Below, piece by piece: positions 11,159 through 34,600 of a stretch of 64,000 nt of DNA. Position 1 is the stretch's first letter. The number at the start of each line of letters is the position of its first letter. The position numbers and the translations under genes were made by a program. The stretch is from Pleurocapsa sp. PCC 7319 (GTDB lineage Bacteria > Cyanobacteriota > Cyanobacteriia > Cyanobacteriales > Xenococcaceae): assembly GCF_000332195.1 (NCBI RefSeq), contig NZ_KB235922.1, positions 1,299,902 through 1,363,901 of the forward strand, written 5' to 3'. The notes under the pieces are model-generated. The model was not told the origin of the DNA. It worked only from the letters and a program-made list of their open reading frames with translations, and searched no databases.

Positions 11159-11243
11159 GTGAATTATCAAGTTTATAACCAGAATACATGATATGTTGGC
11201 GGATGTTTATTTATAATTTCACCAATTATTCGGCAAATTTCTA

Positions 11244-12360: not shown

Positions 12361-12392
12361 CTTATTACTTGTTACTTATTACTTATTACTTG
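12361..12392. repeat. Heptamer STRR (TTACTTA) in spacer
   Basis: Tandem TTACTTA-type heptamers with one variant unit (GTTACTT). The same unit is repeated at 21812-21848, 9 kb away. Confidence 0.65.
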
Positions 12393-12434
12393 ACCCCATT
12401 CCTAATTTAAGTATTCAACCGAACTTGATATTAT

Positions 12435-13781: not shown

Positions 13782-13879
13782 ATTAATTCTTCTTTTTGGA
13801 GTTTTATAATAGTAACTAATCAGGCTCTAATTGCCTAATCTCCAATCAATTAAGATTTATTTGTACCCAGCTTATCAAT

Positions 13880-15997
13880 ATGTTGCGTCGAGTTTTTTTG
13901 CTACAGATTCTACTAGGCTGGTTCATTGCTATTACAAAAAAGCTAGTTACTGGTATCTCCTACAAGTCAGCCTCTGCCGCCCCATTATTTTCTGACGTTG
14001 AGCCAATTATTTTCTTTGTTGCTCCCAATGGCAATGATGCATGGTCAGGAAGACTAGAGGTCGTTAATCCAGAAAATAGTGATGGACCCTTGGCAACTTT
14101 AGAAGGAGCAAAAATAGCAGTTAGAAATTTAAAATCTAATCAATCTTACATTGATCGCCCCATCAAAATTTTATTGCGAAGCGGTACATATTTTTTATCT
14201 CAGCCAGTTTTATTTAAACCAAAAGACTCGGGAAGTATTAATCAACCAATTACTTATCAATCATATCCGCAAGAAAGGGCAATCATTAGTGGGGGAAAAT
14301 TAATTACGGGTTGGCGTAAAGAAATAGTTAACAATCTAGAAATGTGGACTGTAGATTTGCCTCAAGATTCGTCGAATGATTGGCAATTTCAACATCTCTG
14401 GGTTAATGGGAACAGGCGATCGCGATCGCGTTATCCTAGTCAAGGATATCTACAAGTTGAGGCACTAGACACCAGCAAAGATCAAGCCTGGCATGAGGGG
14501 CATGATAGTCTGCAATACTATGAAGGAGATTTACCTAGTACTAATGTCAGTACTTTTGAAGGTGCAGAACTTGTAGTTATGAACCGTTGGGTGGAATCTC
14601 GCCTTCCTATTACGAAGATTGACCCTGTTCAGCGACAAATTTACTTTGGTAAATCTAGTGTTTTTAAACTAGCTCCTGGAGATTTATATTATTTAGAAAA
14701 TTCTTTAGACTGGTTGAATACCCCTGGAGAATGGTATCTAGACCGTCAGCAAGGTAAAGTATATTATCTGCCATTTCCTGAAGAAGACATTAGCACCACA
14801 GAATTTATTGCTCCTGTTCTTAGTACTTTATTGGTATTTCGAGGCAATATCCAGAAAAATAGATATGTTCAACATTTAAAGTTTAAAAATATCACTTTCT
14901 CTCATACCGATTGGCATCTACCTCAAAATGCATCTGGTTACTCTCAAAATGCTTGGGGAGTACCAGGAGTAATAAATGCGATCGCGCTGAAAAATTGTAC
15001 ATGGAGTTATTGTACTTTTGCTCATCTGGGGAATTATGCATTGGAACTAGCCGATTATTGCCAATATAATCGAATTTCTTATTGTTTATTTTCCGACTTA
15101 GGTGGTGGTGGGATTAAAATTGGACGAAAACTAACTAAAAAAACTGGCTCCAATATCTCTGAGAGAACAAGTTATAACCAAGTTGTGGGTAATCACTTCT
15201 TTAATGGGGGAAAATTTTTTCACAGTGCTGCTGCAATTGTGGTGGTAAAAAGCCATCATAATTTAATTGCTCGCAATAATATTCACAACTACTATTACAC
15301 TGCTATTTCGGTGATGGGTACATGGGGTTTTGAACCAACTCAAGCGTATCAAAACCTAATTGAGCATAATCATATTCACCACATAGGTAAGTTAAGTAAT
15401 GGAGATGGTCCAATTATCAGCGATATGGGCGGTATTTATACTTTAGGCTCTCAAAAGGGTACAGTCATCCGTCATAATAAAATTCACGATATCACTGCTC
15501 TACGTTATGGTGGTTGGGGAATTTATCTTGACGAGGGTAGTTCTTACATCACTGCTGAACATAATCTTGTATTCAGAACAAGTCACGGTGGTTTCGCTCA
15601 ACATTACGGCAAAGAAAATCTAATTCGTCATAATATTTTTGCTCTGGGTGATCAAGCCCAACTCCATCGCTCATTTAAAGACTTAAAATTTGCCCGAGAA
15701 GGAAATTTTATTAGCTTCCACTTGGAAAATAACATTTTCTATTGGCAAAAGGGAAAGTTCATTTCTGGTTTAGGCAGAAATTCTCAGTCTCATGCGATTT
15801 TTAACCACAACATTTACTGGAAAGTCGATCAACCTAATTTTTTGCTCGGTGGTTTAGCTTGGAAACGATGGCAACAAAGCGATCGCCATTCTGTAATTAC
15901 CGATCCATTATTTATTGCTCCTCAAGAAGATAACTTTCAACTGCGACCCAATTCTCCTGCTTGGCAATTGGGCATTAGTAAAATAGGACGCGATTAA
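13880..15997 (+). CDS. Right-handed parallel beta-helix protein, probable secreted polysaccharide lyase or hydrolase
   Basis: A 705-residue protein. A hydrophobic N-terminus (residues 5-20) and an Ala-rich stretch ending SASAAP look like an export signal. The first region, with DAWSG, GPLATLEGAK and LRSGTYFLSQPV, is typical of right-handed beta-helix enzymes. The second half carries repeated NxIxxN/HNxIH rungs such as NLIARNNIHNYYYTAISVMG and HNKIHDI, the PbH1 pattern. Such proteins cleave or modify acidic polysaccharides. Its position just after the polymerase suggests it trims or releases the polymer made by this locus. Family-level activity is uncertain. Confidence 0.85.
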   Translation: MLRRVFLLQILLGWFIAITKKLVTGISYKSASAAPLFSDVEPIIFFVAPNGNDAWSGRLEVVNPENSDGPLATLEGAKIAVRNLKSNQSYIDRPIKILLRSGTYFLSQPVLFKPKDSGSINQPITYQSYPQERAIISGGKLITGWRKEIVNNLEMWTVDLPQDSSNDWQFQHLWVNGNRRSRSRYPSQGYLQVEALDTSKDQAWHEGHDSLQYYEGDLPSTNVSTFEGAELVVMNRWVESRLPITKIDPVQRQIYFGKSSVFKLAPGDLYYLENSLDWLNTPGEWYLDRQQGKVYYLPFPEEDISTTEFIAPVLSTLLVFRGNIQKNRYVQHLKFKNITFSHTDWHLPQNASGYSQNAWGVPGVINAIALKNCTWSYCTFAHLGNYALELADYCQYNRISYCLFSDLGGGGIKIGRKLTKKTGSNISERTSYNQVVGNHFFNGGKFFHSAAAIVVVKSHHNLIARNNIHNYYYTAISVMGTWGFEPTQAYQNLIEHNHIHHIGKLSNGDGPIISDMGGIYTLGSQKGTVIRHNKIHDITALRYGGWGIYLDEGSSYITAEHNLVFRTSHGGFAQHYGKENLIRHNIFALGDQAQLHRSFKDLKFAREGNFISFHLENNIFYWQKGKFISGLGRNSQSHAIFNHNIYWKVDQPNFLLGGLAWKRWQQSDRHSVITDPLFIAPQEDNFQLRPNSPAWQLGISKIGRD

Positions 15998-16112: not shown

Positions 16113-16143
16113 TTAGTTGTTTTGGCAGGTAGAAATATTTCAT

Positions 16144-17598
16144 ATGCAACCCGAACTTAAACCCCCACCCCAAAAGTATTCAACATTAGTAGTTCTCGGT
16201 GGAATCGTAACCGCAACGTTAGCGATCGCTAGTTTGACGTGGCTAGCCAATCATTTATCTAAAGACAATGTTGAGGAAATATCTGAATCCAGTCCAACTA
16301 AATCTGTCGTGGAAAAATCACCAACATTAGAAGCTTTATACGCTCTACAGGATAGCCAATCGTTAAAATTACCAGGAACTAAAGTCACAGCTAAAGAGTT
16401 AAAAGCGACCAAAGTTCCCTACATTCCAGCTAAAGCAACTAAGTTGACTGCAACAGAAATGGAGGTAGCCCAAACAGCCTGGAAATACTTTGAAACTAAC
16501 TGGAATAAAACTAGTGGTTTAGTAAATTCTGCCGATCAGTTTCCGTCCGTAACTTTATGGGATCAAAGTGCAGCGATCGCTGGTTTAATAGCCGCCAAGG
16601 AATTAGACATAATTGACATTCAAGAATTTGAAACTAAGATGAGTCGGCTCTTAAAGACTCTAGCAAAACTTGATTTGTATAACGATGAATTACCCAATAA
16701 AGTCTACAATGCCAAAACTTTAATTCCTGTTGACTATGGTGGTATCGAACAAAAGGCAGAAATAGGCTGGTCGGCGATTGATCTAGGGCGAATGGCTATT
16801 TGGCTAAAAATTATTGGTGCTAAATACCCGAAGTTCAAAACTCAAGCCGATGCCGTCTGGGAAGCTTGGGATGTGGAGAGGCTCACTAAAGACGGCAATA
16901 TGTATGGTACCAGCATTAGTAATGGTGAAGAACAATATAACCAAGAAGGGCGTTTAGGTTACGAAAATTATGCTGCCTTTGGCTTAAAACTTTGGGGTTT
17001 AGATGTAGAAAAAGCTTTAGATTATGAAGATAAAACAGCCTTTGTCAATCTCTATGATGTTGGTATTCCCTATGATTTAAGAGATGCTCAAAATTCTGGA
17101 GCAAATAACTATGTCCTAAGCGAACCCTATTTTCTAGATGGGATGGAAACTGGTTTTCAAGCCTTACCCAAAGCCTATAGCGATCGCATTTTACAAGCAC
17201 AAGAAGCCCGTTATCAGAAGACCAAGCAATTAACAGCAATTACAGAAGACAATCTCGACCGAGATCCCCGTTTTGTTTACAACACCTTATTTGTGAATGG
17301 CAAACCTTGGTCGACGATTACGGATACTGGAGAAAACTACAATCATTTACGCTTTTTAAGTGCTAAAGCGGCGATCGGTTGGCACGTTCTTTACGATACT
17401 GCCTATACCAATCAGCTATTTGATTTTGTAGTGGAAAACCTAGAATCAAAAACCGGTTGGTATAACGGCTACTACGAAACTCTAAAAGAACCAAATGAAG
17501 CTTTGACTGCTAATAATAACGGCATTATTTTGGAGTCTCTACTTTATAAACAAGTGGGTAAGCCTTTATTAGTATGGGCAGGAGTTTCTAAAAAATAA
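16144..17598 (+). CDS. Membrane-anchored DUF3131 protein
   Basis: An open frame reaches back to a TTG at 16117, which lies next to the structured repeat. I prefer the ATG at 16144, which gives 484 residues. A single membrane segment near residues 14-36 is followed by an acidic linker and one DUF3131 domain (about residues 100-480). Conserved DUF3131 elements are TLWDQ (about 137-141), LPNKVYN, GWSAIDLGR, QEGRLGYENYAA (about 267-278) and TEDNLD. DUF3131 domains have a helical, glycoside-hydrolase-like look and are often encoded near glycan synthases. Here the gene is followed 17 bp later by a triple-DUF3131 protein and then by a cellulose-synthase-like enzyme. The function is not established; a periplasmic glycan-processing role is inferred. 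Confidence 0.88.
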   Translation: MQPELKPPPQKYSTLVVLGGIVTATLAIASLTWLANHLSKDNVEEISESSPTKSVVEKSPTLEALYALQDSQSLKLPGTKVTAKELKATKVPYIPAKATKLTATEMEVAQTAWKYFETNWNKTSGLVNSADQFPSVTLWDQSAAIAGLIAAKELDIIDIQEFETKMSRLLKTLAKLDLYNDELPNKVYNAKTLIPVDYGGIEQKAEIGWSAIDLGRMAIWLKIIGAKYPKFKTQADAVWEAWDVERLTKDGNMYGTSISNGEEQYNQEGRLGYENYAAFGLKLWGLDVEKALDYEDKTAFVNLYDVGIPYDLRDAQNSGANNYVLSEPYFLDGMETGFQALPKAYSDRILQAQEARYQKTKQLTAITEDNLDRDPRFVYNTLFVNGKPWSTITDTGENYNHLRFLSAKAAIGWHVLYDTAYTNQLFDFVVENLESKTGWYNGYYETLKEPNEALTANNNGIILESLLYKQVGKPLLVWAGVSKK

Positions 17599-17615
17599 AG
17601 GATGAGGGATGAAGG

Positions 17616-20600
17616 ATGAAAAGAAAAAGGGGTTTCAAATTAATTGCCTCATCTGTAATAGTAACGTTAGTATCTCAGTCTTTGATTGGGATTTCTCAAC
17701 CTAAATTAGTTTTGGCACAAGAAAGTGGGAATAGCTGCGCTAATATTGTTAGTCCTCTGACTCCTGAAGAAGAGACTTATGCCCGCAGTGCTTGGCAATA
17801 TTTTCTCAATAACTATCAAGAAAGTACAGGTTTCACCAACTCTTTTGGAGGCTATCCCTCCGGTACTCTCTGGGATATGGGAAATTACCTGATGGCATTG
17901 AATGCGGCTCGCTGGCTTAATCTGATTGACCAGACAGATTTCGATCTTCGTTTGAATAAGTTTTTAGCTAGTCTCAGTGGACTGCGCTTATTTGAAGACA
18001 GCTTACCTAATAAAGTGTACAACACCGCAACAGGAGAAATGGTGGACTATGGTAATAACCCTGTAGAGAGAGGTATAGGCTGGTCTGCTTTGGATATTGG
18101 CAGAATTTTAGCTGCTTTTCACGTACTAAGAACTTGTAATCCTCAATATAGTGAATGGTTACAGTCAATTGTTGATCGCTGGGCGGTAGAGCGATCAATT
18201 CAAGATGGTTATATGTTTGGGGCAACAGTACTCGAAGATGGTCAAACTTTGCTAGTTCAGGAAGGACGTTTGGGCTATGAGGAATATGCAGCCAGAGGTT
18301 ATGAATTATGGGGCTTTGCTGTACCAAAGGCATTATCCTATGAACCTTTTAAAATGGTAGAAATCTATGGCGTACAGCTACCAGTAGATACCCGCAGATT
18401 TCAAGAAACTAACGCCAATAATTATGTTGTCAGTGAGTCATATATTCTGGATGGGATTGAATTCGGCTTTTTAGGTCAGCAACAGGAATATGCTGAAAGA
18501 GTATTCGAGGTACAGCGCAGAAGATATCTTGCCACAGGACAGTTAACGGCAGTGACTGAAGATAATATTGATGGTGCGCCTTACTTTCTTTACAACACAA
18601 TCTTTTCCAATGGCAACGCTTGGGCGACAATTACAGAAACCAATGAGCTTTATCCAGAAAAAAGAAGTATTAGCACTAAAGCTGCTTTAGGTTGGCGTTA
18701 TATCTTTCCTGAGAGTGAATATGCCCAACAACTATTTCAGGTAGCCACAGGCTTGATGAGTCCTGATGGAGGAGGTTTTTATGCTGGTTTATATGAAGAG
18801 ACTAATCAACCTAATAAAGCTCTAACGGGGAACACCAACGGTTTAATTATGGAAATCCTCTACTACAAAGCAAGAGGAAATCAGCCTTTAATTGGAGGAG
18901 ATTTAGTCAATGCCTCTACGGGAGAACCTGAAAAATATGAAGTAGTTGAGGGTTTTCCTCCACCTCCTGGAGTAGATAATTCAGCTTTGGATCACAATCA
19001 AACAGATCGGGATGAAGGAGAGATCGGGAAACAGGAAGATAGTGAGAGCGAGAAACAAGGAGAAGAAGAGACAAATACTACTGTTGAAAAAAAACCTCAA
19101 CCAACTAACTTTATTACTATTGCACCAATTCCTTCTGTCGGAGAAATTCGCTCTTCTAGCTGTTCAGATTTAACCCGCCAGCTAACTATTCCTGAAAAAC
19201 GCTATGCCAAAGTAGCCTGGAAATATTTTGAAGCAAATTACCAGCCAGAAACAGGTCTAGTGAGCGATCGCAGTGATATGAAAGGAACAACCCTCTGGGG
19301 TATTGGCGATTATCTTGCTGCTCTTCAGTCGGCGACTGCTTTAGAATTAATTACCCTCAATAAGTTTGACTTGCGTGTCCGTCAACTATTGGCAACTCTG
19401 CAAAGACTGCCTCTTTTTTCTGGGGAATTACCTCATCGTGGTTATGATATTCGTTCCTTAGAACCTGTAGACTACGGCAATAACCCAACTCCAGAAGGAA
19501 CGGGATGGTCTGGCTTAGATGTGGGCAGAATCTTACTGGCATTACATAACTTGAAAAGCTGCTATCCTCAATATACTGAAGCGATAGATAACATACTTTT
19601 AGAATGGTCTTATCTTAGAGTAGTTAGAAATGGCAGATTAAATAGTGCGGTAGTCGAGCCAGATAATTATAATCGCCGTTTAGCTAGGGTACATTCGGTT
19701 AATCAATTGGGTTATGAAGAATATGCTGCCCGTGGTTTTCAGCTATGGGGGTTTAATGCTGCTCTGTCAGCAGTAGGCGGAGAATACCAAACTGAATCTG
19801 TAGATGGCTTCAAAATTCTCTCTCAACGAGAACGTCCAGGAAAACAGCCCGAACATAATTATATAGTTGCCGATCCTTTTATTCGTTATGGTTTGGAACT
19901 GGGCTTCGATCCGCAAATGCGATCGCTGGTTTACCCGATGCTGCAAGCGGAAGCTAGACGTTATCGAAACCAGGGCTTATTTTCTGCTGCCAATACAGTT
20001 TTAATTCAACAAGAACCCTATATTATTCACAGCACAATTATGGGGAATAAGAAACCTTGGTCAACTTGGTCGGCAGATAGCAAGACAGAAGATAAACATC
20101 GTATTACCAGTGTGGCAGCAGCTTTTGCCTACAGGGCATTATTTCCTGAAGATGAATATACTCAGAAATTACAACAAGCGATAGTAGATTTATATAATCC
20201 TTCTTTAGGTTACTATGAAGGGTTTTATGAGACAAATGGTAAGCCAGCACTGGGTTTTACCAGTAGTACTAATGCGATTGTTCTGCAATCTTTACAATAT
20301 CAGTCACGCAATGGACAACCTTTATTACTAGATAACCTAGACCTCAACTCTCCTTGGTGGAAAGCGATCGCTGAAGGGACTTCTGGAAATGGTTTACCTC
20401 TAGATGCCAAGCCCCAAATTTATCTAGCTAAAGATGAATCAGGTATCCATTGGGATAACTTAAATCCAGTTGATTTTTCTGATACGAAAACCAACAACTA
20501 TCTTTCCTCAAACAAGAAGGCAATGGATACTCCCTTGCGCCGAGCAGTTAATCAAGACGAGACTCAACAATTGTCGCTCAAAACTTCCCCCCCAAATAAT

Positions 20601-21788
20601 CAACCCATAAGTTTCCCTACTAGAAACTGTTCAGCTCATCCTAATCAGGAATTTGATTTATCAGCAGCAAAGCAGGCTTGGCAATATTTTGAACAGAATT
20701 GGCAGAAAAAAACGGGCTTCGTTAACGCTGTGGAAAATTATCCTTGGACAACTTTATGGGATCAGGGGAGTGCCATTTTAGGTATTCATAGCGCAAGACA
20801 GTTAGAAATTATTGACCCAGGAGAATTTGAGGGCAAAATAAGTAAACTTCTATCTACTTTAGAAACTTTACCTTTACCAGCAACAGGTTTACCCAACAAA
20901 GCCTATAGTACTACTACGGGTGAAATGCGTCAGTTAGATAATACTCCTGACTCTGAGGGTAAAAGCGGTTGGTCTGCATTAGATACGGCTAGGTTTCTAA
21001 TCGCACTGCATACTTTAAAAATTCATTACCCAGAATATTCAGCAAAAATTGACAAGATTGTCAGTCGTTGGGATTTAAGTAAATTAGAACAAGACGGTTG
21101 GTTATATGGAGGTATCCCTACTCAACAGGGAACAATAAAGTATTTTCAAGAGGGCAGACTAGGTTATGAACAATATGCAGCTCACGGGTTAAAACTTTGG
21201 GGAATTGAAGCTATTAATGCCCTTCATAATCCACCCACTAAAAATATCGAGGTCGAAGGCATTACTTTAAAAGCAGATCGACGCAACTATGCTAATTCTA
21301 ATGCAGGTAATTATTTAACCAACGATCCTTATCTGCTCTGGGGATTAGAAATGGGTTGGTCTAGCGATAATAAATCCCAGGTTAAAAACCTTTTGCAAGC
21401 CCAGGAAAAAAGATATCAAAGTACCGGGATTCTAACTGCTGTTAATGAAGATTCCTTAGATCGCTTTCCTCATTTCTTGTACTATAGCGTCTATGCTAAT
21501 GGCGATCGCTGGAATGCAGTTAACAACGAAGGTGATTCTTTTCCAGAACTAAAATTTCTCAGTACTAAAGCGGCTTTTGCTGCACACTCCCTATTTCCGA
21601 ATAATCACTACACCAAATCTTTAAAACAAGCTGTGGAGAAAACGGGAGTGAACAATCGTGGCTATCCAGCGGGTATTTTTGAAAATAAAACCCTAGGAGT
21701 AAACAAAGTATTCAACGTTAACACTAACGCCGTAATTCTAGAAGGTATTTTGTATCAAACAAGAAAATGTCCTTTAACAAGTAAATAA
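17616..21788 (+). CDS. Secreted protein with three tandem DUF3131 domains
   Basis: A 1390-residue protein with a signal peptide (basic start, hydrophobic 10-26, likely cleavage after LVLA at 34). Three DUF3131 copies lie at about 48-425, 520-905 and 1010-1385. They are separated by an acidic, probably disordered linker (450-500) and a Pro/Ser-rich linker (930-1000). Copies one and three keep the acidic signatures: LWD at 85-87 and 1047-1049, QEGRLGYExYAA at 215-226 and 1178-1189, and ED in TEDN/NEDS at 315-316 and 1278-1279. Copy two has LWG (560-562), VNQLGYEEYAA (695-705) and ANTV (792-795), so all three acidic positions are altered. It lies between the single-domain DUF3131 gene and the glycan synthase, probably in one operon. 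A periplasmic or extracellular glycan-processing role is inferred. Confidence 0.88.
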   Translation: MKRKRGFKLIASSVIVTLVSQSLIGISQPKLVLAQESGNSCANIVSPLTPEEETYARSAWQYFLNNYQESTGFTNSFGGYPSGTLWDMGNYLMALNAARWLNLIDQTDFDLRLNKFLASLSGLRLFEDSLPNKVYNTATGEMVDYGNNPVERGIGWSALDIGRILAAFHVLRTCNPQYSEWLQSIVDRWAVERSIQDGYMFGATVLEDGQTLLVQEGRLGYEEYAARGYELWGFAVPKALSYEPFKMVEIYGVQLPVDTRRFQETNANNYVVSESYILDGIEFGFLGQQQEYAERVFEVQRRRYLATGQLTAVTEDNIDGAPYFLYNTIFSNGNAWATITETNELYPEKRSISTKAALGWRYIFPESEYAQQLFQVATGLMSPDGGGFYAGLYEETNQPNKALTGNTNGLIMEILYYKARGNQPLIGGDLVNASTGEPEKYEVVEGFPPPPGVDNSALDHNQTDRDEGEIGKQEDSESEKQGEEETNTTVEKKPQPTNFITIAPIPSVGEIRSSSCSDLTRQLTIPEKRYAKVAWKYFEANYQPETGLVSDRSDMKGTTLWGIGDYLAALQSATALELITLNKFDLRVRQLLATLQRLPLFSGELPHRGYDIRSLEPVDYGNNPTPEGTGWSGLDVGRILLALHNLKSCYPQYTEAIDNILLEWSYLRVVRNGRLNSAVVEPDNYNRRLARVHSVNQLGYEEYAARGFQLWGFNAALSAVGGEYQTESVDGFKILSQRERPGKQPEHNYIVADPFIRYGLELGFDPQMRSLVYPMLQAEARRYRNQGLFSAANTVLIQQEPYIIHSTIMGNKKPWSTWSADSKTEDKHRITSVAAAFAYRALFPEDEYTQKLQQAIVDLYNPSLGYYEGFYETNGKPALGFTSSTNAIVLQSLQYQSRNGQPLLLDNLDLNSPWWKAIAEGTSGNGLPLDAKPQIYLAKDESGIHWDNLNPVDFSDTKTNNYLSSNKKAMDTPLRRAVNQDETQQLSLKTSPPNNQPISFPTRNCSAHPNQEFDLSAAKQAWQYFEQNWQKKTGFVNAVENYPWTTLWDQGSAILGIHSARQLEIIDPGEFEGKISKLLSTLETLPLPATGLPNKAYSTTTGEMRQLDNTPDSEGKSGWSALDTARFLIALHTLKIHYPEYSAKIDKIVSRWDLSKLEQDGWLYGGIPTQQGTIKYFQEGRLGYEQYAAHGLKLWGIEAINALHNPPTKNIEVEGITLKADRRNYANSNAGNYLTNDPYLLWGLEMGWSSDNKSQVKNLLQAQEKRYQSTGILTAVNEDSLDRFPHFLYYSVYANGDRWNAVNNEGDSFPELKFLSTKAAFAAHSLFPNNHYTKSLKQAVEKTGVNNRGYPAGIFENKTLGVNKVFNVNTNAVILEGILYQTRKCPLTSK

Positions 21789-21853: not shown

Positions 21854-24220
21854 ATGAATGAACCCAGTTTCCAAGGTAATATTCAATCATATTTAAAAGA
21901 CAGAACATTATTATTCCGCTATTTAGTTATTATTAACCTGATTTTTGGCGCTTGGTACTTACAGTGGCGCATTACTCATTCTCTTAATTTTGCAGCACTG
22001 TGGCTTTCAATTCCGCTTCTTCTAGCTGAAATTTATAGTTATCTCGGAGGGGTAATGTTTCTGATTGGTTTATGGCAACCAGTGGTCAGAAAAATTAGAT
22101 CTTTTAATTGTTTGGTCCCCAAATTTCTGGAAGCAGAATATCCAACTATTGATATTTTTATCACTTGCTACAATGAACCAGCAGAAATGGTTGCAGAGAC
22201 AGCAAAAGCATCGCTAGCGATTGATTACCCTGTAGATAAACTCAAGGTATATATCCTGGATGATGGTAATTCTTCAGATATGAGAGCAATGAGTGAAAGT
22301 CTATGTTTGCAAGATTTACGCAGTTCTTTACTCCAAAAGCAAGCTACCAGAATTGAGCAAGAGCGATCGCAACTCGTAAATCGTTTACAACAGCTAAAAA
22401 ATATCACTCCTGATATTGTTGCCAGCGATGAATATTTACAGACATATAAACTACAGACAAAATCTGATTTAGGGGAATTAGTAGAAGTATTAGATTGGTT
22501 TAATTCCCTAAAAACCGATGAGATTGATGTTCGCTCCTGGTTAGAATTCCAGACTATTTTGGGAGAAGCTTTTGATAATGTTGTCGGTCATGCCCATCAG
22601 GGATTACCAGAAAATACTCCAATTGATTTGGAAATAGCTATTTTAAGTCAATCATTGGTACTTAAAATCTGGGACTATGGCGTAGAATTCGACCTAAAAT
22701 CCTATAAATGCCAATTACCAGATGTGGTTGAACCTGAAGCTGAAAGTGGAAGAGGCATCTTAATCATGGAAGAATTAAGTGATTATTTTAGCTACACTAG
22801 ACTAGACGATGGACGCAATTGTTTACTGGTAATCAAAGCTTACTCCCCTGTATACACTGAAAATACAGCGAAATCTAACTGTCCACTTCCAATTCAAGGT
22901 TTAGGACAATTATTTTCTTTACTCAATCCCCAAGACAAACAACTTCAAGATTGTTTATCCAGAGAACAGCAAGCTTTAGAACAAGCTATTTATCAAAAGG
23001 AGCTTGAGCTAAGTGAATTGTCGCGTTGTCGATATATTGCTCGTCCTAAACCCAAGGGCAAAGCCCATCATGCTAAAGCAGGTAATATTAACCATGCCAT
23101 TTTTTCAGGGGAAACTTCAGGAGAGTTTATTGTCACCTTAGATGCAGATCATATTCCGAAACCAGAATTTCTCAATCGAGTTTTACCCTACTTTTATCAA
23201 TATAATCTTCACACAGGTAAATACCAACAAAATCAAATCGCCTTTGTCCAAACTCCCCAAGCATTTTATAACTTACCCCCAGGCGATCCTTTTGGACATC
23301 AAGCACATCTATTTTATGGACCCATTCAACAGGGCAAAGATGGTATGGAAGCAGCTTTCTATACAGGAACAAATGCCATTTTACGTCGAGAAGCTCTAGT
23401 TAGTGTTGGCTTACAAAATTTTTCTGATGAATATGAGTTAGATAATAATCGTCTTGATGAATTTGATTTAGTTGGCGGTGTATCTAGCAATAGCATCACA
23501 GAAGATATGAATACTGCAATGCGTCTTCATGCTGCGGGATGGAAGTCTGTTTACCATCATGAAGAATTATCCGTCGGTCTGGCTCCTGATGATCTGAGTT
23601 CAACGTTGAAACAAAGATTACGTTGGGCGCAAGGAACTATCCAGGTATTACTCAAAGAAAACCCTTGGTCAAAACCAGGCTTGACTTTTTGGCAAAGACT
23701 GCAATATTTCCAAACAATGTATAGCTATTTTGCTGGATTTTTTATTGTTATTTTTATTGCTTGCCCTTTAATTTATTTCTTTACGGGAATTATTCCGGTA
23801 CGTTCATTTAGTGCTGACTTTGCAATTCACTTTTTACCTGCTTTTATTCTCAATCGACTTACTTTTATCGTTGCTACTTGGGGTATACCTGCTAGTGAAG
23901 TTTGGCGTTCTGAACAATATGCGATCGCTCTATTTCCTTTGATGATTCGTGCAGTCTGGAGTATTTTTAGTGGTAGAGATGTCAAGTTTCAAGTCACACC
24001 TAAACAAAGACAATCAGGTAGATATCTACATTTGGTAACAGCTCAGTTATTGGTATTTGTGCTCACAATTTTAGGTATTATTTATTGTATTTATCTGTTG
24101 GTTACTAGCAACTTAGAAAATCCCTGGACTTATTTTATTAATTTCTTTTGGGCAATTTATAATTTATCTCTACTGTGGGTAATTATTAAAGCAGCAGTTT
24201 GGCAACCTAAATCAAATTAG
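21854..24220 (+). CDS. Cellulose-synthase-like GT2 glycosyltransferase with inserted RsbW-type ATPase domain
   Basis: A 788-residue membrane synthase. Two N-terminal membrane segments (about 21-40 and 47-72) precede the GT2 domain. The donor-binding YILDDGNS is at 133-140, DADH at 430-433, TGTNAILRR at 504-512, the TED motif at 549-551 and QRLRW at 587-591. Several membrane segments follow. These are the D, DxD, TED and Q(Q/R)xRW signatures of processive beta-glycan synthases. Between the first D motif and KGKAHHAKAGN lie about 245 extra residues. Within them, 205-328 form a GHKL ATPase of the RsbW/SpoIIAB class: N-box EAFDNVVGHAH (238-248), G1 box DYGVEFD (274-280; second Gly replaced by Glu) and G2 box ESGRGILIMEEL (297-308). 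Flanking 150-205 and 355-390 look helical or coiled-coil. No C-terminal PilZ domain is present. The polymer made is unknown. Confidence 0.93.
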   Translation: MNEPSFQGNIQSYLKDRTLLFRYLVIINLIFGAWYLQWRITHSLNFAALWLSIPLLLAEIYSYLGGVMFLIGLWQPVVRKIRSFNCLVPKFLEAEYPTIDIFITCYNEPAEMVAETAKASLAIDYPVDKLKVYILDDGNSSDMRAMSESLCLQDLRSSLLQKQATRIEQERSQLVNRLQQLKNITPDIVASDEYLQTYKLQTKSDLGELVEVLDWFNSLKTDEIDVRSWLEFQTILGEAFDNVVGHAHQGLPENTPIDLEIAILSQSLVLKIWDYGVEFDLKSYKCQLPDVVEPEAESGRGILIMEELSDYFSYTRLDDGRNCLLVIKAYSPVYTENTAKSNCPLPIQGLGQLFSLLNPQDKQLQDCLSREQQALEQAIYQKELELSELSRCRYIARPKPKGKAHHAKAGNINHAIFSGETSGEFIVTLDADHIPKPEFLNRVLPYFYQYNLHTGKYQQNQIAFVQTPQAFYNLPPGDPFGHQAHLFYGPIQQGKDGMEAAFYTGTNAILRREALVSVGLQNFSDEYELDNNRLDEFDLVGGVSSNSITEDMNTAMRLHAAGWKSVYHHEELSVGLAPDDLSSTLKQRLRWAQGTIQVLLKENPWSKPGLTFWQRLQYFQTMYSYFAGFFIVIFIACPLIYFFTGIIPVRSFSADFAIHFLPAFILNRLTFIVATWGIPASEVWRSEQYAIALFPLMIRAVWSIFSGRDVKFQVTPKQRQSGRYLHLVTAQLLVFVLTILGIIYCIYLLVTSNLENPWTYFINFFWAIYNLSLLWVIIKAAVWQPKSN

Positions 24221-24997: not shown

Positions 24998-25951
24998 ATG
25001 ACCTCCGATTTACTTATAGGAGAAATAGCTAAAAAGTTTGGTCTGTCTACTCAAGCCATTCGTTATTATGAAAAACTAGGTTTAATTGAATCTCCCTGCA
25101 GAAGCGCAAAAGGTTATCGATTGTATTCTTCCATCACAGTCGAGCGATTACAATTGATTCAATATGCTCAAAAATTCGGTTTCTCTCTCAATCAAATTAA
25201 AGAATTACTGGAGTTTGCTAATTTACAGGATAGTACTGTCGCTTTAAATAAAATGCTCGACGATCGGTTACAAGATCTAGAGCAACAGCTAAATCAAATT
25301 CAATTAAACACCAAAGAATTAAAGCAAAGACAGCAACAATTAAATCAATTAATTACTAATGAAAAATCCGATAAATACAGCGTTGTAGATAATTATTTAT
25401 TGCACTTATTTAGAGATATAGAAGCAAGCTTATCTGCGAATAATCAAACTGCCAATAAAGCTAATCGGCTTTTAGAACTATACAGTACAGGAGAGCGAGA
25501 TTTCCAAGCCATAGAATTAATTGGCGCTGAGTTAAATGGCGCATTTCTTTGTAATGCCGACTTTAGTTTTGCTGAGATGATGTTAGCTAGCTTAAATGAA
25601 GTTTCCATGGTTCAAACTAAGCTTAATCGAGCTTATCTTAGTGGGGTGGATCTAATCGATGCTTATTTACATCAAGCAGAATTAATTAATACCAATCTTA
25701 TTGGTGCCGACTTAACCCAAGCCATCCTTACCGAAGCAAATTTAACAGGGTGTAACTTAGGTGGAGCAAATTTAACTAATGCCGATTTAAGGGGAGCTAA
25801 CCTGACTGAAGCTGTTTTAATTGGTGCTAATTTAACTGATACTAATTTTCAAGGAGCAACCATTTTAGGGAGTAATTTTTTAGAAGCTAATTTAGAGGGC
25901 GCAATATTCGATCTTGGGGTTAGAGAAAAGTTACAGCTTGCCAATAGTTAA
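24998..25951 (+). CDS. MerR-family regulator fused to a pentapeptide-repeat domain
   Basis: A 317-residue protein. Residues 1-70 are a MerR winged helix-turn-helix: IGEIAKKFGLSTQAIRYYEK, then the GLIESPCRSAKGYRLYS wing. A long helix about 85-125, rich in Gln and Leu, would be the MerR dimerisation coiled coil. Instead of an effector or metal-binding domain, the C-terminus (about 172-305) is a run of A(D/N)LxX pentapeptide repeats such as GANLTNADLRGANLTEAVL, which should fold as a right-handed quadrilateral beta-helix. Only one Cys pair-like position is visible and no metal site is recognisable. The gene stands alone, so its targets are unknown; MerR proteins usually act on nearby or divergent promoters. 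Confidence 0.9.
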   Translation: MTSDLLIGEIAKKFGLSTQAIRYYEKLGLIESPCRSAKGYRLYSSITVERLQLIQYAQKFGFSLNQIKELLEFANLQDSTVALNKMLDDRLQDLEQQLNQIQLNTKELKQRQQQLNQLITNEKSDKYSVVDNYLLHLFRDIEASLSANNQTANKANRLLELYSTGERDFQAIELIGAELNGAFLCNADFSFAEMMLASLNEVSMVQTKLNRAYLSGVDLIDAYLHQAELINTNLIGADLTQAILTEANLTGCNLGGANLTNADLRGANLTEAVLIGANLTDTNFQGATILGSNFLEANLEGAIFDLGVREKLQLANS

Positions 25952-26124: not shown

Positions 26125-29100
26125 ATGAATAAATACGGAACTAATAACCAAGATCAATTATTTGGCTCTACAGAATCTGATATTTTAATGGGTTACGAAG
26201 GGAATGATACTCTTGGCGGAGGAGCAAGTGACGATCCTTGGCTCGATGGCGATCGCGGCAACGATGTTATCGAAGGTGGTGAAGGTAATGACTCTTTAGC
26301 TGGTGGCGAGGGGAATGACTGGGTACATGGAGATTATGGTGACAACAATTGGAAAAAAGATGAAAATGGCAACTATATATATGTAGGGGAAATAGATACT
26401 ACTGGTGCTGCTGGTAGTGAAGAAAGTTCCTCCGCAACCGAAGATACTGACCACGACTACATAAGTGGCGGTGCTGGCAACGATATTCTGATTGGTGGTA
26501 CTGGTGATGATGAGATCGCTGGTGGTACTGGTGATGATGAGATCGATGGCGGAAATGGTGATGATTACTGGCTAGCAGGTCAAGAGGGTGATGACACCAT
26601 TAATGGTGATGCGGGTGACGACATCATGGAAGGAGGCGAAGGAAATGACCTCCTGAATGGTGGCATCGGCAAGGATAAATTGATGGGAGATATGGGAGAG
26701 GATACTCTTCAGGCTGGAGATGGAGAAGACTACGCCGATGGTGGCGATGGTAATGATTTAGTTGATGGTGGTGCAGGGGCAGATACTGTTAAAGGTGGAC
26801 TAGGTGATGACAAAATCCTGGGCGGGACTGGTAACGATATCCTCGAAGGAGAAGCTGGCAACGATGAATTAATTGGTGGTGACGGTGACGACTACTGGAT
26901 GTCTGGAGGAGATGGAAACGATACTCTCTACGGAGAAGCTGGACATGATGTTATGGACGGTGGTGCTGGCGAAGATCTAATGTATGGCGGTGCGGAAGAT
27001 GATGTCATCTTGGGGCAAGAGGGTTCAGACACTATCTATGGAGGAGAAGGAATTGATCGTATTGATGGTGGTGCAGATCAAGATTTAATCGTTGCTGGTG
27101 ATGGTGACGATGATGTTCATGGTGGCGATGGTGACGATATTGTTAACGGAGAAACAGGACAAGATGTTCTCTATGGCGATGTGGGGCAAGATTTAATCGA
27201 CGGTGGCAAAGGACATGACTATCTTAACGGTGGAGATGATGACGATACTCTTCTTGGTGGCGATGGTATGGATGCTATTGATGGTGGTACTGGAGACGAT
27301 CAAATTCATGGCGGAAATGATAACGATAGTTGGTTATTCGGTAATGCTGGGGCAGACACTATCCAGGGTGATTCGGGTGCAGATGTCCTTGATGGGGGTG
27401 ATGGCAATGACTTACTAGAAGGCGGTACTGACAATGATGTTCTTATGGGTGGTGCTGATAACGATACCCTCAATGCAGGAGAAGGAGATGACTACTGGGT
27501 TGACGGTGGAGCAGGCAACGATATTGTTCACGGTGATTGGGGCAATGATACAGTTGCTGGTGGTGCTGGTAATGATTCGGTTAGTGGCGATACAGGTCTG
27601 GATGTGGTTTTGGGTAATGAGGGAGATGATACTCTCTTTGGCGGTGCAGATAACGATACTGTCGATGGTGGCTCAGGTAACGATCTTATCGATGGTGGTT
27701 TAGGTGCGGATGTCCTTAAAGGCGACACTGGTGATGATGAAATTTCTGGCGGAGAAGGTAATGACTACATTGAAGGTGGTATCGATAACGATGAAATTTC
27801 TGGGGATGAAGGCGATGATGTAATTTCTGGTGGTGCAGGTTCGGATCGAATTGAAGCTGGCTCTGGTGATGATGTCGTCATGTTCGACAGTGAAGACACT
27901 GTAGTTAAAGGTGGTGACGGTTACGATATTGCGATCGCCGAAACAGAACAAGCTGTTGTCCTCGACTTAGGCATTAATAGCTTTAACGAAGCCAAAGGTA
28001 ATGCCGGCAACGATGTCTTTACTCATACCAATGGTGCAAGTGCAACAGCTAATTATTCTGTAGCAATGTACGGAGAAGCTGGCAATGACTCCATGACTGG
28101 TGGTGCAGCTAATGATTACTTTGAAGGTGGCACAGGCAACGATACGATTATTGCTGGTGTCGGAGAGGACTACGCGATCGCTGGTGCCGGAAATGACTCT
28201 CTGACGGGAGAAGCAGGACACGATCTACTAGAAGGTAATACTGGAAATGACACTATCTCTGGTGGCGACCATAACGACAATATCATTGGTGGAGAGGGTA
28301 TAGATGAACTTTATGGTGATGCTGGCAATGATATTCTGACATTTGATGCTCAAGATACCGTAGTTGATGGAGGAGAAGGTTACGATGTCGCGATCGCCGA
28401 AGGTGATACAGCAATTACTCTCGATTTAGCTACCAGTCAGATTGAACTGGCTTACGGTACAGCACAGGATGATATTTTGACTAACTCTGGCAATGATAGC
28501 GTTGAAATTCATGGTAAAGCTGGTAACGATACTCTCTTTGGTGGCAGTGGCAACGATATCCTTAAAGGTGGATCTGGTACTGATGCTCTCTATGGTGAAG
28601 GCGGAAACGATAAACTAACTGCTGATACTGGAAGTGATTTACTCGATGGTGGTAGTGGCAACGATACTCTCTTTGGTAGCAACGATAATAACCAACTATT
28701 CGGTGGTTCTGGAAAAGATATTCTCTACGGCATTGATGGTCAAAATCAACTTTACGGAGGAAATAATAAAGACTGGTTATTCGGTGGTTCTGGTAACGAT
28801 GAACTCCATGGAGATAGCGGAAATGACGAACTCTACGCCGAGGCTGGTAACGACTTCCTCGATGGGGGAATTGGCAATGACTTGTTACTAGGTAAAGAGG
28901 GTAACGATACTCTAGTTGGTGGTAATGGTGATGATATTCTTATCGGTGCCAATAGCTCTACTAATCAAGGTAACGGTTCAGTCGATGTGTTAACTGGTGG
29001 TGCTGGTGCAGATTACTTCATTCTTGGAGATATCGATGCATTCTATAAAGGAGGCTCAGCAGACTATGCCTTAATTACTGACTTCGATAGCGAAGAAGAT

Positions 29101-29256
29101 CGTATTCAATTAAGTGGTGTCGCTGAAGACTATAATCTTGGTGCTGCTATCTCTGAAATTGATGGTTTTGGAGTCTACTTTCAAGATGAATTGGTTGCCA
29201 TTATTCAAAGTACAACTGACTTTGATTTGACTGATACATCTTTTATCTACATCTAA
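26125..29256 (+). CDS. Large RTX calcium-binding protein (hemolysin-type nonapeptide repeats)
   Basis: A 1043-residue acidic protein built almost entirely of GGxGxDxLx nonapeptide repeats, which bind calcium and fold as a parallel beta-roll outside the cell. There is no N-terminal signal peptide. The C-terminal 100 residues (GADYFILGDIDAFYKGG, LITDFDSEEDRIQL, ending DTSFIYI) look like the uncleaved type I secretion signal region of cyanobacterial RTX proteins. Two non-repeat islands, about 590-640 and 760-790 with AEGD-type sequences, break the array. No enzymatic domain is visible, so a surface-layer-like, adhesive or motility role is possible. No type I exporter gene lies nearby. A strong terminator follows at 29309. 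Confidence 0.93.
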   Translation: MNKYGTNNQDQLFGSTESDILMGYEGNDTLGGGASDDPWLDGDRGNDVIEGGEGNDSLAGGEGNDWVHGDYGDNNWKKDENGNYIYVGEIDTTGAAGSEESSSATEDTDHDYISGGAGNDILIGGTGDDEIAGGTGDDEIDGGNGDDYWLAGQEGDDTINGDAGDDIMEGGEGNDLLNGGIGKDKLMGDMGEDTLQAGDGEDYADGGDGNDLVDGGAGADTVKGGLGDDKILGGTGNDILEGEAGNDELIGGDGDDYWMSGGDGNDTLYGEAGHDVMDGGAGEDLMYGGAEDDVILGQEGSDTIYGGEGIDRIDGGADQDLIVAGDGDDDVHGGDGDDIVNGETGQDVLYGDVGQDLIDGGKGHDYLNGGDDDDTLLGGDGMDAIDGGTGDDQIHGGNDNDSWLFGNAGADTIQGDSGADVLDGGDGNDLLEGGTDNDVLMGGADNDTLNAGEGDDYWVDGGAGNDIVHGDWGNDTVAGGAGNDSVSGDTGLDVVLGNEGDDTLFGGADNDTVDGGSGNDLIDGGLGADVLKGDTGDDEISGGEGNDYIEGGIDNDEISGDEGDDVISGGAGSDRIEAGSGDDVVMFDSEDTVVKGGDGYDIAIAETEQAVVLDLGINSFNEAKGNAGNDVFTHTNGASATANYSVAMYGEAGNDSMTGGAANDYFEGGTGNDTIIAGVGEDYAIAGAGNDSLTGEAGHDLLEGNTGNDTISGGDHNDNIIGGEGIDELYGDAGNDILTFDAQDTVVDGGEGYDVAIAEGDTAITLDLATSQIELAYGTAQDDILTNSGNDSVEIHGKAGNDTLFGGSGNDILKGGSGTDALYGEGGNDKLTADTGSDLLDGGSGNDTLFGSNDNNQLFGGSGKDILYGIDGQNQLYGGNNKDWLFGGSGNDELHGDSGNDELYAEAGNDFLDGGIGNDLLLGKEGNDTLVGGNGDDILIGANSSTNQGNGSVDVLTGGAGADYFILGDIDAFYKGGSADYALITDFDSEEDRIQLSGVAEDYNLGAAISEIDGFGVYFQDELVAIIQSTTDFDLTDTSFIYI

Positions 29257-30014: not shown

Positions 30015-31274
30015 TCAAAGTTCAATTTGTAGCTGACCAGTAAACGATTGATTATTGTAGTTACTATTCCCAGTTTGGCGATCGCGCACATTAGAATAGG
30101 TATAGCCTAAGTCTAATTTGAGATTGGACAAAAGCTGCGCTCCACACAAGGCTTTGTAAGTCCAAGCATTATCAGTTTCACTATCTAGCCGTTGTTGACC
30201 AAAAGCTGCGGATAACTTGCAATCCAAAAATTCATCAAACATTGTTCCTTGCCAAGCTAATTCTGCATTATAGACTAGGAAATCTGAGGGAGAGAAATAG
30301 CCGCTTACGTCACCTAAATCTTGTTCAAAGCTCCAGGTAAATAAATTGGCAGCTAAAGAAAAAGAACCTAATTTTTTTTCTAAACGACTAAAAGACTGAA
30401 ACTCTTGATTACCATCATTAAAGGTGCCGTATTGACCTAAACTAAAAAGACTAAAATTAGGTCGAATCTGCCAATAGATACTGGGTGTAAAACGCCAAAA
30501 ATTGATTTCATTTTCTAGGGTTTCGGCATTAAATTTATAAGCCTGATATTGAGCTTGTCCTGACAGAACAAATAAAGATTTTAATTTACCATCCGCAGTG
30601 ATACTACTAAATAGAGGTGAACTGGCTTTTAGGGTTAAGGTTGGTACAGCAGCTAAACGATCAAAGAAATCCACTCCACCTGTTACAGTTAAATCAATAT
30701 TTTTCAGCTTTGTTTCCCAAGCTAAATATAGAGGAATATTATTAACTGTCTCAATTTCGTCTTGCTTAAATAAGTTAGTACCAGTTTTTAAGACAAAAGA
30801 TTGATTGTATAAATTAAACGCAATAGATTCTTCAATAAATTGATTTGTTTGTCCAAAATTATCAAAATCACGCTGAAAATCTAAGGTTAAGTTTTCTACA
30901 GTGAGTTGGGAAGAACTAGGGTTTTTAGTTGAATTTGGTTTAGTTTTTAATTCGATGTCTGCTGTACCAGATTTGATCGATGATTCATTAGATAAAGTTG
31001 GTGATGCTTTTGTAGGAAGTACTGTTTGAGGTATAACTTGGGGTCTAGATTCAGTTGGTATTTTTTCTTCATCATTGCTTTGTTGTCCGTCTTTTCCATG
31101 TGTTTCTGTAATGGGTAGAGATTGCAATTTGGGATTAAAGTTTTCAGGTGCCGCGATCGCTTTGGGGATAGTAAAAATGCTAATCGCGATCGCCAAGCTA
31201 GACCAAAATATTCGACAAATAACAAATGGCTGATGCTTGATAGAGTTACAGCAGTTTATTGAGCTTAGTGACAT
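30015..31274 (-). CDS. Probable outer-membrane beta-barrel protein, uncharacterised
   Basis: A 419-residue protein. Residues 20-42 are hydrophobic and end in an AIAAPE-like cleavage site, a probable Sec signal. Residues 43-125 are low-complexity and Pro/Ser/Thr-rich. From about 125 to the end the sequence alternates hydrophobic and polar residues with aromatic ends, for example QFVLKTGTNLF-like strands, NFSLFSLGQYGTF and LKLDLGYTYSNVRD, and it finishes in SFTGQLQIEL. That is the look of an outer-membrane barrel. No named family is recognised. It is transcribed alone. Confidence 0.65.
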   Translation of the reverse strand: MSLSSINCCNSIKHQPFVICRIFWSSLAIAISIFTIPKAIAAPENFNPKLQSLPITETHGKDGQQSNDEEKIPTESRPQVIPQTVLPTKASPTLSNESSIKSGTADIELKTKPNSTKNPSSSQLTVENLTLDFQRDFDNFGQTNQFIEESIAFNLYNQSFVLKTGTNLFKQDEIETVNNIPLYLAWETKLKNIDLTVTGGVDFFDRLAAVPTLTLKASSPLFSSITADGKLKSLFVLSGQAQYQAYKFNAETLENEINFWRFTPSIYWQIRPNFSLFSLGQYGTFNDGNQEFQSFSRLEKKLGSFSLAANLFTWSFEQDLGDVSGYFSPSDFLVYNAELAWQGTMFDEFLDCKLSAAFGQQRLDSETDNAWTYKALCGAQLLSNLKLDLGYTYSNVRDRQTGNSNYNNQSFTGQLQIEL

Positions 31275-31648: not shown

Positions 31649-34600
31649 TCACAGTTTTGTCAGAAACGAGTGCAAATCCTGATGAACTTGTTTAAATTCT
31701 GTTTGGGCTTTAGATAATATCGGCTGAGTATTATCAATTGTTCTTGATCGCCCTAGTTGTTCTAACTCTTCGCATAGTTGCGCTAGCTTGACTGCACCCA
31801 AATTAGCACTACTAGATTTCATACTGTGGGCTGCTTGTTCAATGATTTCTGCATCAGCCAGGTTAATAGCTTCAGCGATCGCCTTTAACCGGGCTTCAGT
31901 ATCAGTAAGATAGCTAGTAACCATCTCTTCGATTAGTAAATTACCTTCTTCTCCTGCCATTTCACAGATAGACTCTAAAACAGAAAAATCAACCGCTGAC
32001 TCTATTGTTTTCTCTATCTTTTCTATTTCCATAGGAGCATTTGGTAAATCATCCCTATCTTTTATTTTTCCAACTATTTGTTCGACAGGCTGACACCGAC
32101 TTAAGGCTTCTCGTAACTCTTCTACTCGGATGGGTTTGCTAACATAATCATCCATCCCAATTGCCAGACACTTTTCGCGATCGCCTGTCATGGCATTGGC
32201 AGTCATGGCAATAATTCGCGGACGAGATTCCGCCGTCCATTCCCGGCAAATTAGCTCGGTAGCAGTTAAACCATCCATTTCGGGCATATGTACATCCATA
32301 AGTACTACATCATAGTGCTGACGGCGTAATGCTTCGAGGACTTCTACTCCATTACTGGCAACATCGGCACGATAACCCATTTGCTGCAAAATTAATAAAG
32401 CAACTTTTTGATTAACTACTATATCCTCTGCCAATAATATATCGAGGGGTAAACTATCAGCTAAATGTGGCTGAAGAAAAGCCGTATCAGTAGCTTTGAC
32501 CCGGACTAATTTTCCACTTACAGCGCGAGTTAGTACTTGATACAGTTTGGATTGAGCAATCGGCTTGTTGACAATTGCTGACAAGTTAACGTCTTGAGCT
32601 TGTTGAATAATTTCTTGTTTGCTTAAGGAGCTTAACATTACTAGAGGTAAATCTTGATAATTTGGTTGCTGACGGATAGCTCTAGCTAAACTTAAGCCAT
32701 CCATAACCGGCATCTGCATATCCAAGATTCCTAAATCAAATTCAACTCTCTGAGAGATTAATTCTAAAGCTTTTGCCCCAGATTCTACAGCACAGCTAGA
32801 CATTCCCCAAGATTGAGCTTGTAAGGTTAAAATTTTGCGATTTGTGGCATTATCATCTACGATTAGCAGTTGTTTGCCGATTAAACGATTTTCAGGTAAT
32901 GTGTCTTTAACTAACTCTTGAGCAACGGTAGCCGAGATCGTAAAGTAAAAAGTAGAACCCACGCCAACTTCACTCTCGACCCACATTCTGCCCCCCATCA
33001 TTTCACTTAGCTTTTGACTAATTGCCAAGCCTAAACCTGTTCCACCATATTGACGAGTGGTAGAAGCATCCACTTGACTGAAGGACTTAAACAAACGATC
33101 TAGGCGATCGCTGGGAATACCAATCCCGGTATCTTTAACGGCAAATTCAATTTGATATTTATCCGCGGAATTAGCCCAAGCTTGGCTCATGAAAATACTA
33201 GAATCTCCAAGGGCTGATTGTTCTTTGATTTTCCGACTCCTGACCGATACTACTACTTCTCCTGCTTCGGTAAATTTTACGGCATTGCCAATTAGATTAA
33301 CTAAAATCTGTCGTAGTCGAGTAATATCTCCCACAATATTATTAGGGGTATCAGGTTCAATTAGATAAGCTAGTTCCAATTGTTTCGACTCCGCTTTGGG
33401 AGCAATCAAATTTAGTGCTTCTTCAATACAGCAATTGAGGGCAAAGGGTTGAGCCTCAAATTCCAGTTTTCCTGCTTCAATTTTAGAAAAATCGAGAATA
33501 TCGTTAATCAGGGTAAGCAAAGCATCTCCACTACTGCGGATTGTCTGAACAAAGTCTTTTTGCTGTGGATTTAATTTAGTATTGAGCAATAAGCCTGTCA
33601 TCCCAATCACCGCATTCATGGGAGTACGAATTTCATGACTCATAGTAGCCAGAAACTTACTTTTAGCTTGGTTGGCTGCTTCTGCTTCATCGCGAGCCTG
33701 TGCTAGTTTGGAGCGCGAATTTCTGCGCTCGATTTCGCCACCAATCCACTGTGCCATCAATTCGATTAATTCGATTTGGATGGTTTTAAAAGGTTCGGGG
33801 TGAGGTTTGAGACTCGAAAAATTGAGGGTGCCATAAACTTCCCCTCCAACCATTACTTTTGTGCCTAGATAGGCTGGAGGATTAGTTTCAAGATAACAGG
33901 GATGGGCTTGCCAACTGAGACGTTCGGCATTGTCTGTCTTATCCCCCTGGAAGCTGATGGGATGTTGGGCTTGGATAGTACGCTCACAACAAGTTTGCTC
34001 TACACTAAAAATATCTCCCACACTGACTTCTAAAGTAGAATCAGCAGTTAGTTTAACTGCAACTATACGATAGAGATCGTTTTCAATCTTGCTCAAAATC
34101 CCTACATCTAAATTTAGTTGTTGACAACCCATGAGCAGAATTTGTTCAACTCTGAGGGAAAAACTGCGTTCGGCTCTCGTTGTCACTTCGTAGAGATTCC
34201 GAATTGAAGCTTCGCGATCGCGTAATTCTTGTTCAGCTTGTTTGCGCTCGGTAATATCTCTTTCCACCGATACAAAATGGGTGTATTTCCCTTTTGGATC
34301 GGCAATAGGAATTATATTTAGCTCCACCCAATATTCCCGACCATCTTTGCCATAGTTAATAATTTCCGTTTTAATTGGTAGCCATCGAGTGAGAGATTGT
34401 TTGATTTGAGAGAGAGTCAGGCGATCTGTCTTTCCTCCTTGCAGAATACGAGGCGTTTTACCAATTACTTCTGCTGGAGTATAGCCAGTCATAAAGGTAA
34501 AAGCTTCATTGACGTATATTATTTGCGGATGATCCGGCGCATCTATAGATTCCGCTTCGGTAATAACGATCGCATCATTAGCATTGACCACCACAGATTC

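Follow-up and report, generated by a model that had tools for sequence, protein, structure and literature searches.

The stretch of DNA analysed here, referred to as the window, comprises 64,000 nucleotides of the genome of the cyanobacterium Pleurocapsa sp. PCC 7319 (contig NZ_KB235922.1). At positions 21854 to 24220 it carries a gene whose product combines a cellulose-synthase-like glycosyltransferase of family 2 (GT2) with an inserted ATPase domain of the RsbW type. The parts of this fused synthase are as follows.

21854 to 24220, plus strand: cellulose-synthase-like GT2 of 788 amino acids with an inserted RsbW-type ATPase and without a PilZ match (open reading frame, Pfam, alignment)
22325 to 22447, plus strand: first arm of a helical hairpin, residues 158-198 (alignment; helix H158-198 of the structure model)
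22448 to 22849, plus strand: RsbW/SpoIIAB-type GHKL (HATPase_c_2) domain at the hairpin tip, approximately residues 199-332 (profile, motifs, predicted fold)
22886 to 23014, plus strand: second, returning arm of the hairpin (residues 345-387), modelled as two helices (alignment, model)

Judged by its sequence, the product is a BcsA-like GT2 and probably a cell-surface polysaccharide synthase. It matches the Pfam model Cellulose_synt (E 3.7e-38) together with GT2 models, and the cellulose synthase 5ej1 aligns with the glycosyltransferase part on both sides of the insert (2e-50). The D, DxD, TED, QxxRW and FxVTxK motifs of BcsA-type synthases are all present, the first four as in the initial annotation made from the letters alone. 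In an alignment of 40 sequences, 21 with the insert and 19 without it, residues D136, D137, G138, D430, A431, D432, T549, E550, D551, Q587, R590 and W591 are invariant, as are F712, T715, P716 and K717, with V714 nearly so. The group F712-K717 aligns with the FxVTxK stretch of 5ej1, which we take to be the gating loop. Pfam gives no PilZ match in the window protein, as initially noted, nor in the synthases of loci L068, L045 and L013, and PilZ is matched in both other cellulose-synthase-like glycosyltransferases scanned from the window's genome (L002, L004). The CelA equivalog of NCBIfam is not reached (317.7 bits against a cut-off of 699.1). In one insert-bearing synthase outside the 40-sequence set (L012, genome G006) the DDG motif has become DEG and the HHAKAGN stretch HLVQTGT, and catalysis is possibly altered there.

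The insert sits between the first D motif (D1) and the DxD motif of the GT2 core. Its length relative to an ordinary CesA is about 245 residues, the size originally given, but the ATPase accounts for only about 135 of them; the other part, of about 100 residues, is a hairpin common to close relatives with and without the ATPase, which occupies its tip. In the full-length structure model, helices 158-198 and 345-357/364-387 flank the ATPase. HATPase_c_2 matches residues 204-328 (E 6.5e-16, 58.9 bits against a cut-off of 27.4) and structure prediction gives the domain a Bergerat fold, so that profile, motifs and predicted fold all uphold the RsbW-type GHKL assignment first proposed. The RsbW models of NCBIfam match at the same position (5.2e-07), and because their 29.2 bits fall far below the equivalog cut-off of 145, the domain is by sequence RsbW-type and not RsbW itself.

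The nucleotide-site motifs lie where they were initially read: N-box EAFDN (E238, N242), G1 DYGVEFD (274-280) and G2 GRG (299-301). Across 26 distinct inserts the N-box Glu and the G1 Asp are kept in all 26, the N-box Asn, the first G1 Gly and the second G2 Gly in 25, and the first G2 Gly in 24. The position of the second G1 Gly is variable (P in 9, G in 7, E in 4, D in 2, F in 1, others rarer). The initial annotation had read the missing second Gly as a possible sign of nucleotide binding without catalysis. That inference is not supported, because the position varies among the inserts while the N-box Glu does not, and because RsbW of Bacillus subtilis (6m36) has DEGDSFD as its G1 box, with Ser at this position; a loss of catalysis on this ground is thereby rejected. 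The domain would on these motifs bind nucleotide and act as a kinase. In ten pairs of sequences the ratio of nonsynonymous to synonymous substitution (dN/dS) of the ATPase domain is 0.055-0.227, against 0.43 in a pair that includes a decayed copy; the catalytic half of the same ten pairs gives the lower values of 0.029-0.060, all of these being read with the caveat that dS exceeds 1 in several pairs.

Three further genes of the window bear on the function of the inserted domain.

31649 to 35923, minus strand: hybrid histidine kinase with PAS, GAF, HisKA, HATPase_c, two receiver and Hpt domains, its gene divergent from that of the phosphatase
36218 to 37390, plus strand: receiver-SpoIIE (PP2C) phosphatase, the proposed switch phosphatase (PF07228 5.3e-40, PF00072 1.4e-29)
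37394 to 37723, minus strand: STAS-only protein with an NSSGMG motif (Pfam, motif, STAS tree)

The STAS and receiver-PP2C genes are linked with the synthase in the window and adjoin the hybrid histidine kinase gene. Matches to STAS and SpoIIE are few in the window's genome of 7.39 Mb (14 and six, respectively), and the adjacency of synthase and switch genes is therefore far above chance. The Pleurocapsa contig L039 repeats the order of synthase, barrel, histidine kinase and start of the phosphatase gene, where the contig ends. The window's STAS protein falls in a clade (98/85) of 17 STAS proteins from insert loci together with the two STAS proteins of W-STAS pairs, W being used here for a separate gene for an RsbW-type (HATPase_c_2) ATPase. 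All but two of the 17, the exceptions being those of the window and of L044, are encoded within 1.3 kb of a fused synthase. Among the 21 STAS rows from insert loci, that of L042 belongs to the next wider clade (94/97); three lie outside it, namely the second of the L041 locus, that of L046 and the L148 duplicate of the latter. The protein encoded at 37394-37723, already suggested as a partner when the sequence was first read, is thus a good candidate partner of the inserted ATPase, as most members of its clade adjoin a fused synthase elsewhere. Its motif also follows its locus: the 72 rows from other loci read DSSG (70) or DSMG (2), and the 21 insert-locus rows read NSSG (13), NSTG (5) or NSSA (3). 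The second letter is Ser in 93 of 93 aligned rows, duplicates included, and is presumably the phosphosite, as in SpoIIAA/RsbV.

The insertion was surveyed in several overlapping samples. At class level, 40 of 388 genomes carry the synthase (defined by E<=1e-150), and 17 of these 40 have full-length matches that include the insert. An order-level sample of 195 genomes holds the insert form in five, the window's included, and the form without the insert in 20. Of 120 confirmed loci 80 were kept as named loci, 22 with the insert and 58 without it, and these overlap in part with the class-level carriers and with 26 class-level loci. An artefact of a single assembly is ruled out by the open reading frame and by the same architecture in the 22 of 80 named loci and the 17 of 40 carriers. 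Inserted and nearby separate copies of the ATPase occur in a complementary manner: a separate W was found in none of the 22 insert loci and in 47 of the 58 others, or 0/17 against 47/54 where at least 5 kb of downstream DNA was present. Among loci with 700 bases downstream, 12 of the 20 that have the insert and 51 of the 58 that lack it carry a same-strand STAS gene no more than 1.3 kb downstream of the synthase, as do nine of a further 10 non-insert loci. With 1.5-kb flanks, the 26 class-level loci show STAS in 11 of 15 with the insert and in all 11 without it. The loci L145-L164, counted apart, give STAS in 3/4 and W in 0/4 of those with the insert, against 14/16 and 13/16 of those without. 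Locus L010, a duplicate of L046, was excluded from the motif and tree sets; L148, another duplicate of L046, was retained among the four insert loci of L145-L164 and among the STAS rows.

The usual order in Nostoc is DUF3131, synthase, sometimes PIG-L, STAS, receiver-PP2C on the opposite strand, W and a large sensor-like protein, and the common order at insert loci is DUF3131, fused synthase and STAS. Among the switch genes STAS is the most constant neighbour of the synthase, also where the fetched locus has no W (L211-L213), and this constancy makes it plausible that the synthase is the target of STAS, with W as the STAS kinase, which in the fused form is mounted on the enzyme.

A tree of the ATPases was built with 25 of the 59 distinct synthase-linked W and few columns. 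The inserted ATPases group together in a clade (98/92), joined there by two separate W paired with STAS (L125, L126). Its sister, a relation that depends on a root placed on a distant protein with a long branch, contains 22 of the 25 sampled synthase-linked W (98/83), those of L090, L155 and L158 branching elsewhere; other cyanobacterial W, many of them from W/PP2C/STAS modules away from a synthase, lie outside both clades. The two W-STAS pairs (L125:3385-4322 and L126:5076-6097) come from two genomes of the window's family and have no synthase adjoining; they may represent a donor or an excised form of the insert. Synthase trees were built without the insert columns from 62 and 55 sampled rows. 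In the former the group without the insert is nested, and in the latter, which has deeper non-insert members, a branch (73/99) sets the insert group off from the rest; with an outgroup branch of about 3.45 changes the root is unsafe. One change of insert state suffices on both trees, so the kinase appears to have been fused into the synthase, or split from it, in about one event.

Our interpretation starts from what the analysis shows: the inserted domain with its predicted fold and conserved nucleotide site, the linkage of the switch genes, and the way in which inserted ATPases and separate ones nearby tend to replace each other among the loci. We consider it likely that this synthase has a dedicated partner-switching module, composed of a serine kinase, a STAS protein and a PP2C phosphatase, and that the insert is its kinase limb. 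The kinase gene would have moved into the synthase from a separate gene, or have been split off from the synthase later. In the proposed scheme the sensor kinase (31649-35923) would act on the receiver-PP2C phosphatase (36218-37390), which would dephosphorylate the STAS protein (37394-37723). Unphosphorylated STAS would then dock at the ATPase and hairpin of the synthase and switch polymer synthesis, until the inserted kinase phosphorylates it on the first Ser of the NSSG motif and it is released. Such a switch would take the place of the C-terminal PilZ domain through which cyclic di-GMP (c-di-GMP) controls BcsA. By analogy with SypA, HmpV and SiaC, activation of the synthase by unphosphorylated STAS is favoured over inhibition (PMC8256260, PMC6495340, PMC8457831; these and the sources below are cited from excerpts). 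Nucleotide binding, kinase activity, STAS docking, the direction of control and the polymer are points of this scheme that we infer. The earlier suggestion that a partner switch rather than c-di-GMP is at work is matched by the genes (a STAS protein of the right clade, a receiver-PP2C, a separate W in most relatives without the insert, no PilZ), while its second half, the gating of synthesis, would follow from the scheme. On balance we lean slightly towards the fuller statement that the kinase is built into the catalytic half of a processive synthase, that the phosphatase-STAS pair switches the enzyme directly, without a sigma factor or c-di-GMP, and that relatives with a separate W use the same switch in trans.

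Information could also flow in the reverse direction, with the synthase serving as a membrane-bound platform that senses polymer or substrate for the kinase, and phosphorylation of STAS reporting to another target such as motility or transcription. We regard this as unlikely, although the HmpUVW and SypE/SypA systems are described in the excerpted sources with unphosphorylated STAS as an output on an unknown target (PMC6495340, PMC8256260), and the W-STAS pairs of L125 and L126, close to the inserts, adjoin no synthase; STAS genes beside synthases where no W was found (L211-L213, L215, L217-L219, the sequences of L215 and L217 stopping shortly beyond their STAS gene) point to the synthase as a target and not only a platform. 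It is less probable still that the domain is a stand-alone ATP/ADP sensor through which energy charge gates synthesis, the nearby STAS and PP2C genes belonging to another switch. The conserved nucleotide-site residues and the existence of cyanobacterial W/PP2C/STAS modules away from a synthase (e.g. L127-L133, L135-L139, L141) would suit such a sensor, but most insert-locus STAS proteins form one clade beside those of other loci, paralleling the ATPases, and the decayed insert of L013 has no STAS near its synthase. That same decayed insert, whose synthase still matches GT2 models, and the retention of GT2 motifs in relatives without the domain would be compatible with a structural passenger that is tolerated and has no regulatory role. 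Because, except at the variable second G1 position, 24-26 of the 26 inserts retain each site residue of the N-box, G1 and G2, and because dN/dS of the domain is well below 1, this last possibility is highly improbable and is ruled out as the principal explanation.

The decayed insert deserves separate mention. The ATPase of L013 (genome G172) no longer has the Asn of the N-box, the Gly of G1 or a G2 motif, and HATPase_c_2 is unmatched at E 0.1. Neither a STAS nor a PP2C gene was found in the roughly 8.7 kb that flank its synthase on each side (L147). The four STAS-only genes of G172 recognised by Pfam all lie outside the insert-locus clade; three of them find their pairing partners among other STAS genes in the genome to which L046 belongs (G133), and the remaining one is grouped with genes from G000, G089 and G006, so that none looks like a counterpart of the STAS of L046. 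A lost partner together with a decayed domain is, in this one case, the pattern expected under the proposed switch.

Several observations weigh against the switch as proposed. The case of L013 is a single genome, and it is weakened by L046, its nearest relative, whose synthase-adjoining STAS likewise lies outside the insert-locus clade. The window's own STAS and receiver-PP2C genes are 12-13 kb from the synthase, and three other short HATPase_c_2 genes over the cut-off, possible STAS kinases, occur elsewhere in its genome. Eight of the 20 insert loci have no STAS within 1.3 kb on the same strand, and where 5 kb downstream were available, no more than 8 of 17 insert loci have a PP2C gene, against 50 of 54 non-insert loci. 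W is missing near 11 of the 58 non-insert synthases, and in L211-L213 neither W nor PP2C was found in the locus beside synthase and STAS; all of these locus counts cover the fetched DNA around the synthase. As one state change suffices, the counts of 0/22 and 47/58 are not independent and amount effectively to one event. The synthase-linked separate W (e.g. L068:14083-14499) have Ser in place of the G1 Asp, an adenine contact, in 52 of 59, with N-box and G2 kept, and such proteins may bind ATP abnormally. Finally, the full-length model is of modest quality (pLDDT 72, pTM 0.57), too weak to place the hairpin relative to the active site.

Other genes around the synthase are listed here.

16117 to 17598, plus strand: DUF3131 protein upstream of the synthase (PF11329 5.7e-153)
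17616 to 21788, plus strand: three stretches of DUF3131 in one protein, whose gene stops 65 bases short of the synthase (open reading frame, Pfam)
30015 to 31274, minus strand: possible outer-membrane beta-barrel (BCSC_C 4.8e-4, weak and below the cut-off)

Four DUF3131 stretches thus stand in two proteins directly upstream of the synthase (16117-21788). DUF3131 proteins were seen at 16 of the 22 insert loci and at 56 of the 58 without the insert, and no mention of DUF3131 with cyanobacteria was found in the open-licence PMC literature searched. Relatives of the barrel occur in 12/22 and 29/58, respectively. Further upstream, 8253-15997 holds additional genes of polysaccharide type, for two methyltransferases, GT1-type and GT2-type glycosyltransferases, an EpsG-like protein and a beta-helix/GH141 protein; downstream lie a MerR-type regulator fused to pentapeptide repeats (24998-25951) and a 1043-residue protein (26125-29256) in which inspection by eye shows many RTX-like GGxGxD repeats. 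In other genomes a PIG-L type de-N-acetylase (L062:12003-12713) and a GH2-family hydrolase (L212:10633-13140, L213:11087-13543) stand beside synthase and STAS, which gives hints on the sugars of the polymer or its trimming. A second W/PP2C/STAS module, arranged as is common in cyanobacteria, also occurs in the window's genome (L119:13404-13778; C7 ~2058.4 kb); its W is short, has a long branch and scores 21.6 bits against the Pfam cut-off of 27.4, and is possibly decaying.

Parts of the proposed arrangement have precedents. With RsbW and SpoIIAB of Bacillus (6m36, 6m37, 1th8, 1til) the domain shares the predicted Bergerat fold, the N-box E..xN, the G1 DxG and the G2 box, as well as linked genes for STAS and a PP2C-type phosphatase, but here it lies inside a glycosyltransferase and far under the NCBIfam RsbW cut-off. 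The GT2 core has the D, DxD, TED, QxxRW and FxVTxK motifs of BcsA (4hg6, 4p00, 5ej1), from which the window protein differs in the missing PilZ match, the hairpin and ATPase between D1 and DxD, and a score under the CelA equivalog cut-off. A partner-type switch with direct enzyme output is already known from SiaABCD of Pseudomonas aeruginosa, which has a diguanylate cyclase as its enzyme and a kinase that is a separate protein, and control of beta-glucan synthesis via c-di-GMP from BgrUVWR of Sinorhizobium meliloti (Baena et al. 2017, as cited in PMC8457831), where STAS acts on a diguanylate cyclase and c-di-GMP relays the signal (excerpts of PMC8457831); in the window, unlike BgrUVWR, the kinase-like domain belongs to the synthase-like protein itself. 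HmpUVW of Nostoc punctiforme and SypE/SypA of Vibrio fischeri are described as partner switches in the control of motility and polysaccharide or of biofilm, with STAS as output (PMC6495340, PMC8256260, PMC4517449), and the excerpts describe the targets of HmpV and SypA as unknown (PMC6495340, PMC8256260). Identity of the synthase-linked module with HmpUVW was not adopted: in Nostoc its STAS, PP2C and W genes adjoin the synthase together, whereas hmpV (Npun_F5169) stands apart from hmpU and hmpW (Npun_R5135/R5134; PMC10581220, in excerpt), a comparison made by locus tags only. No description of a partner-switching kinase inserted in a polysaccharide synthase was found in the open-licence PMC literature searched, mostly as titles and listings.

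In the fused synthase the proposed kinase limb is covalently joined to a protein that is its likely target. Since relatives encode the same parts in separate genes, both target and mechanism become approachable with few proteins. If the proposed switch is correct, partner switches that do not act on sigma factors would gain a direct enzyme target, and BcsA-like synthases would have a route of control that is independent of c-di-GMP.
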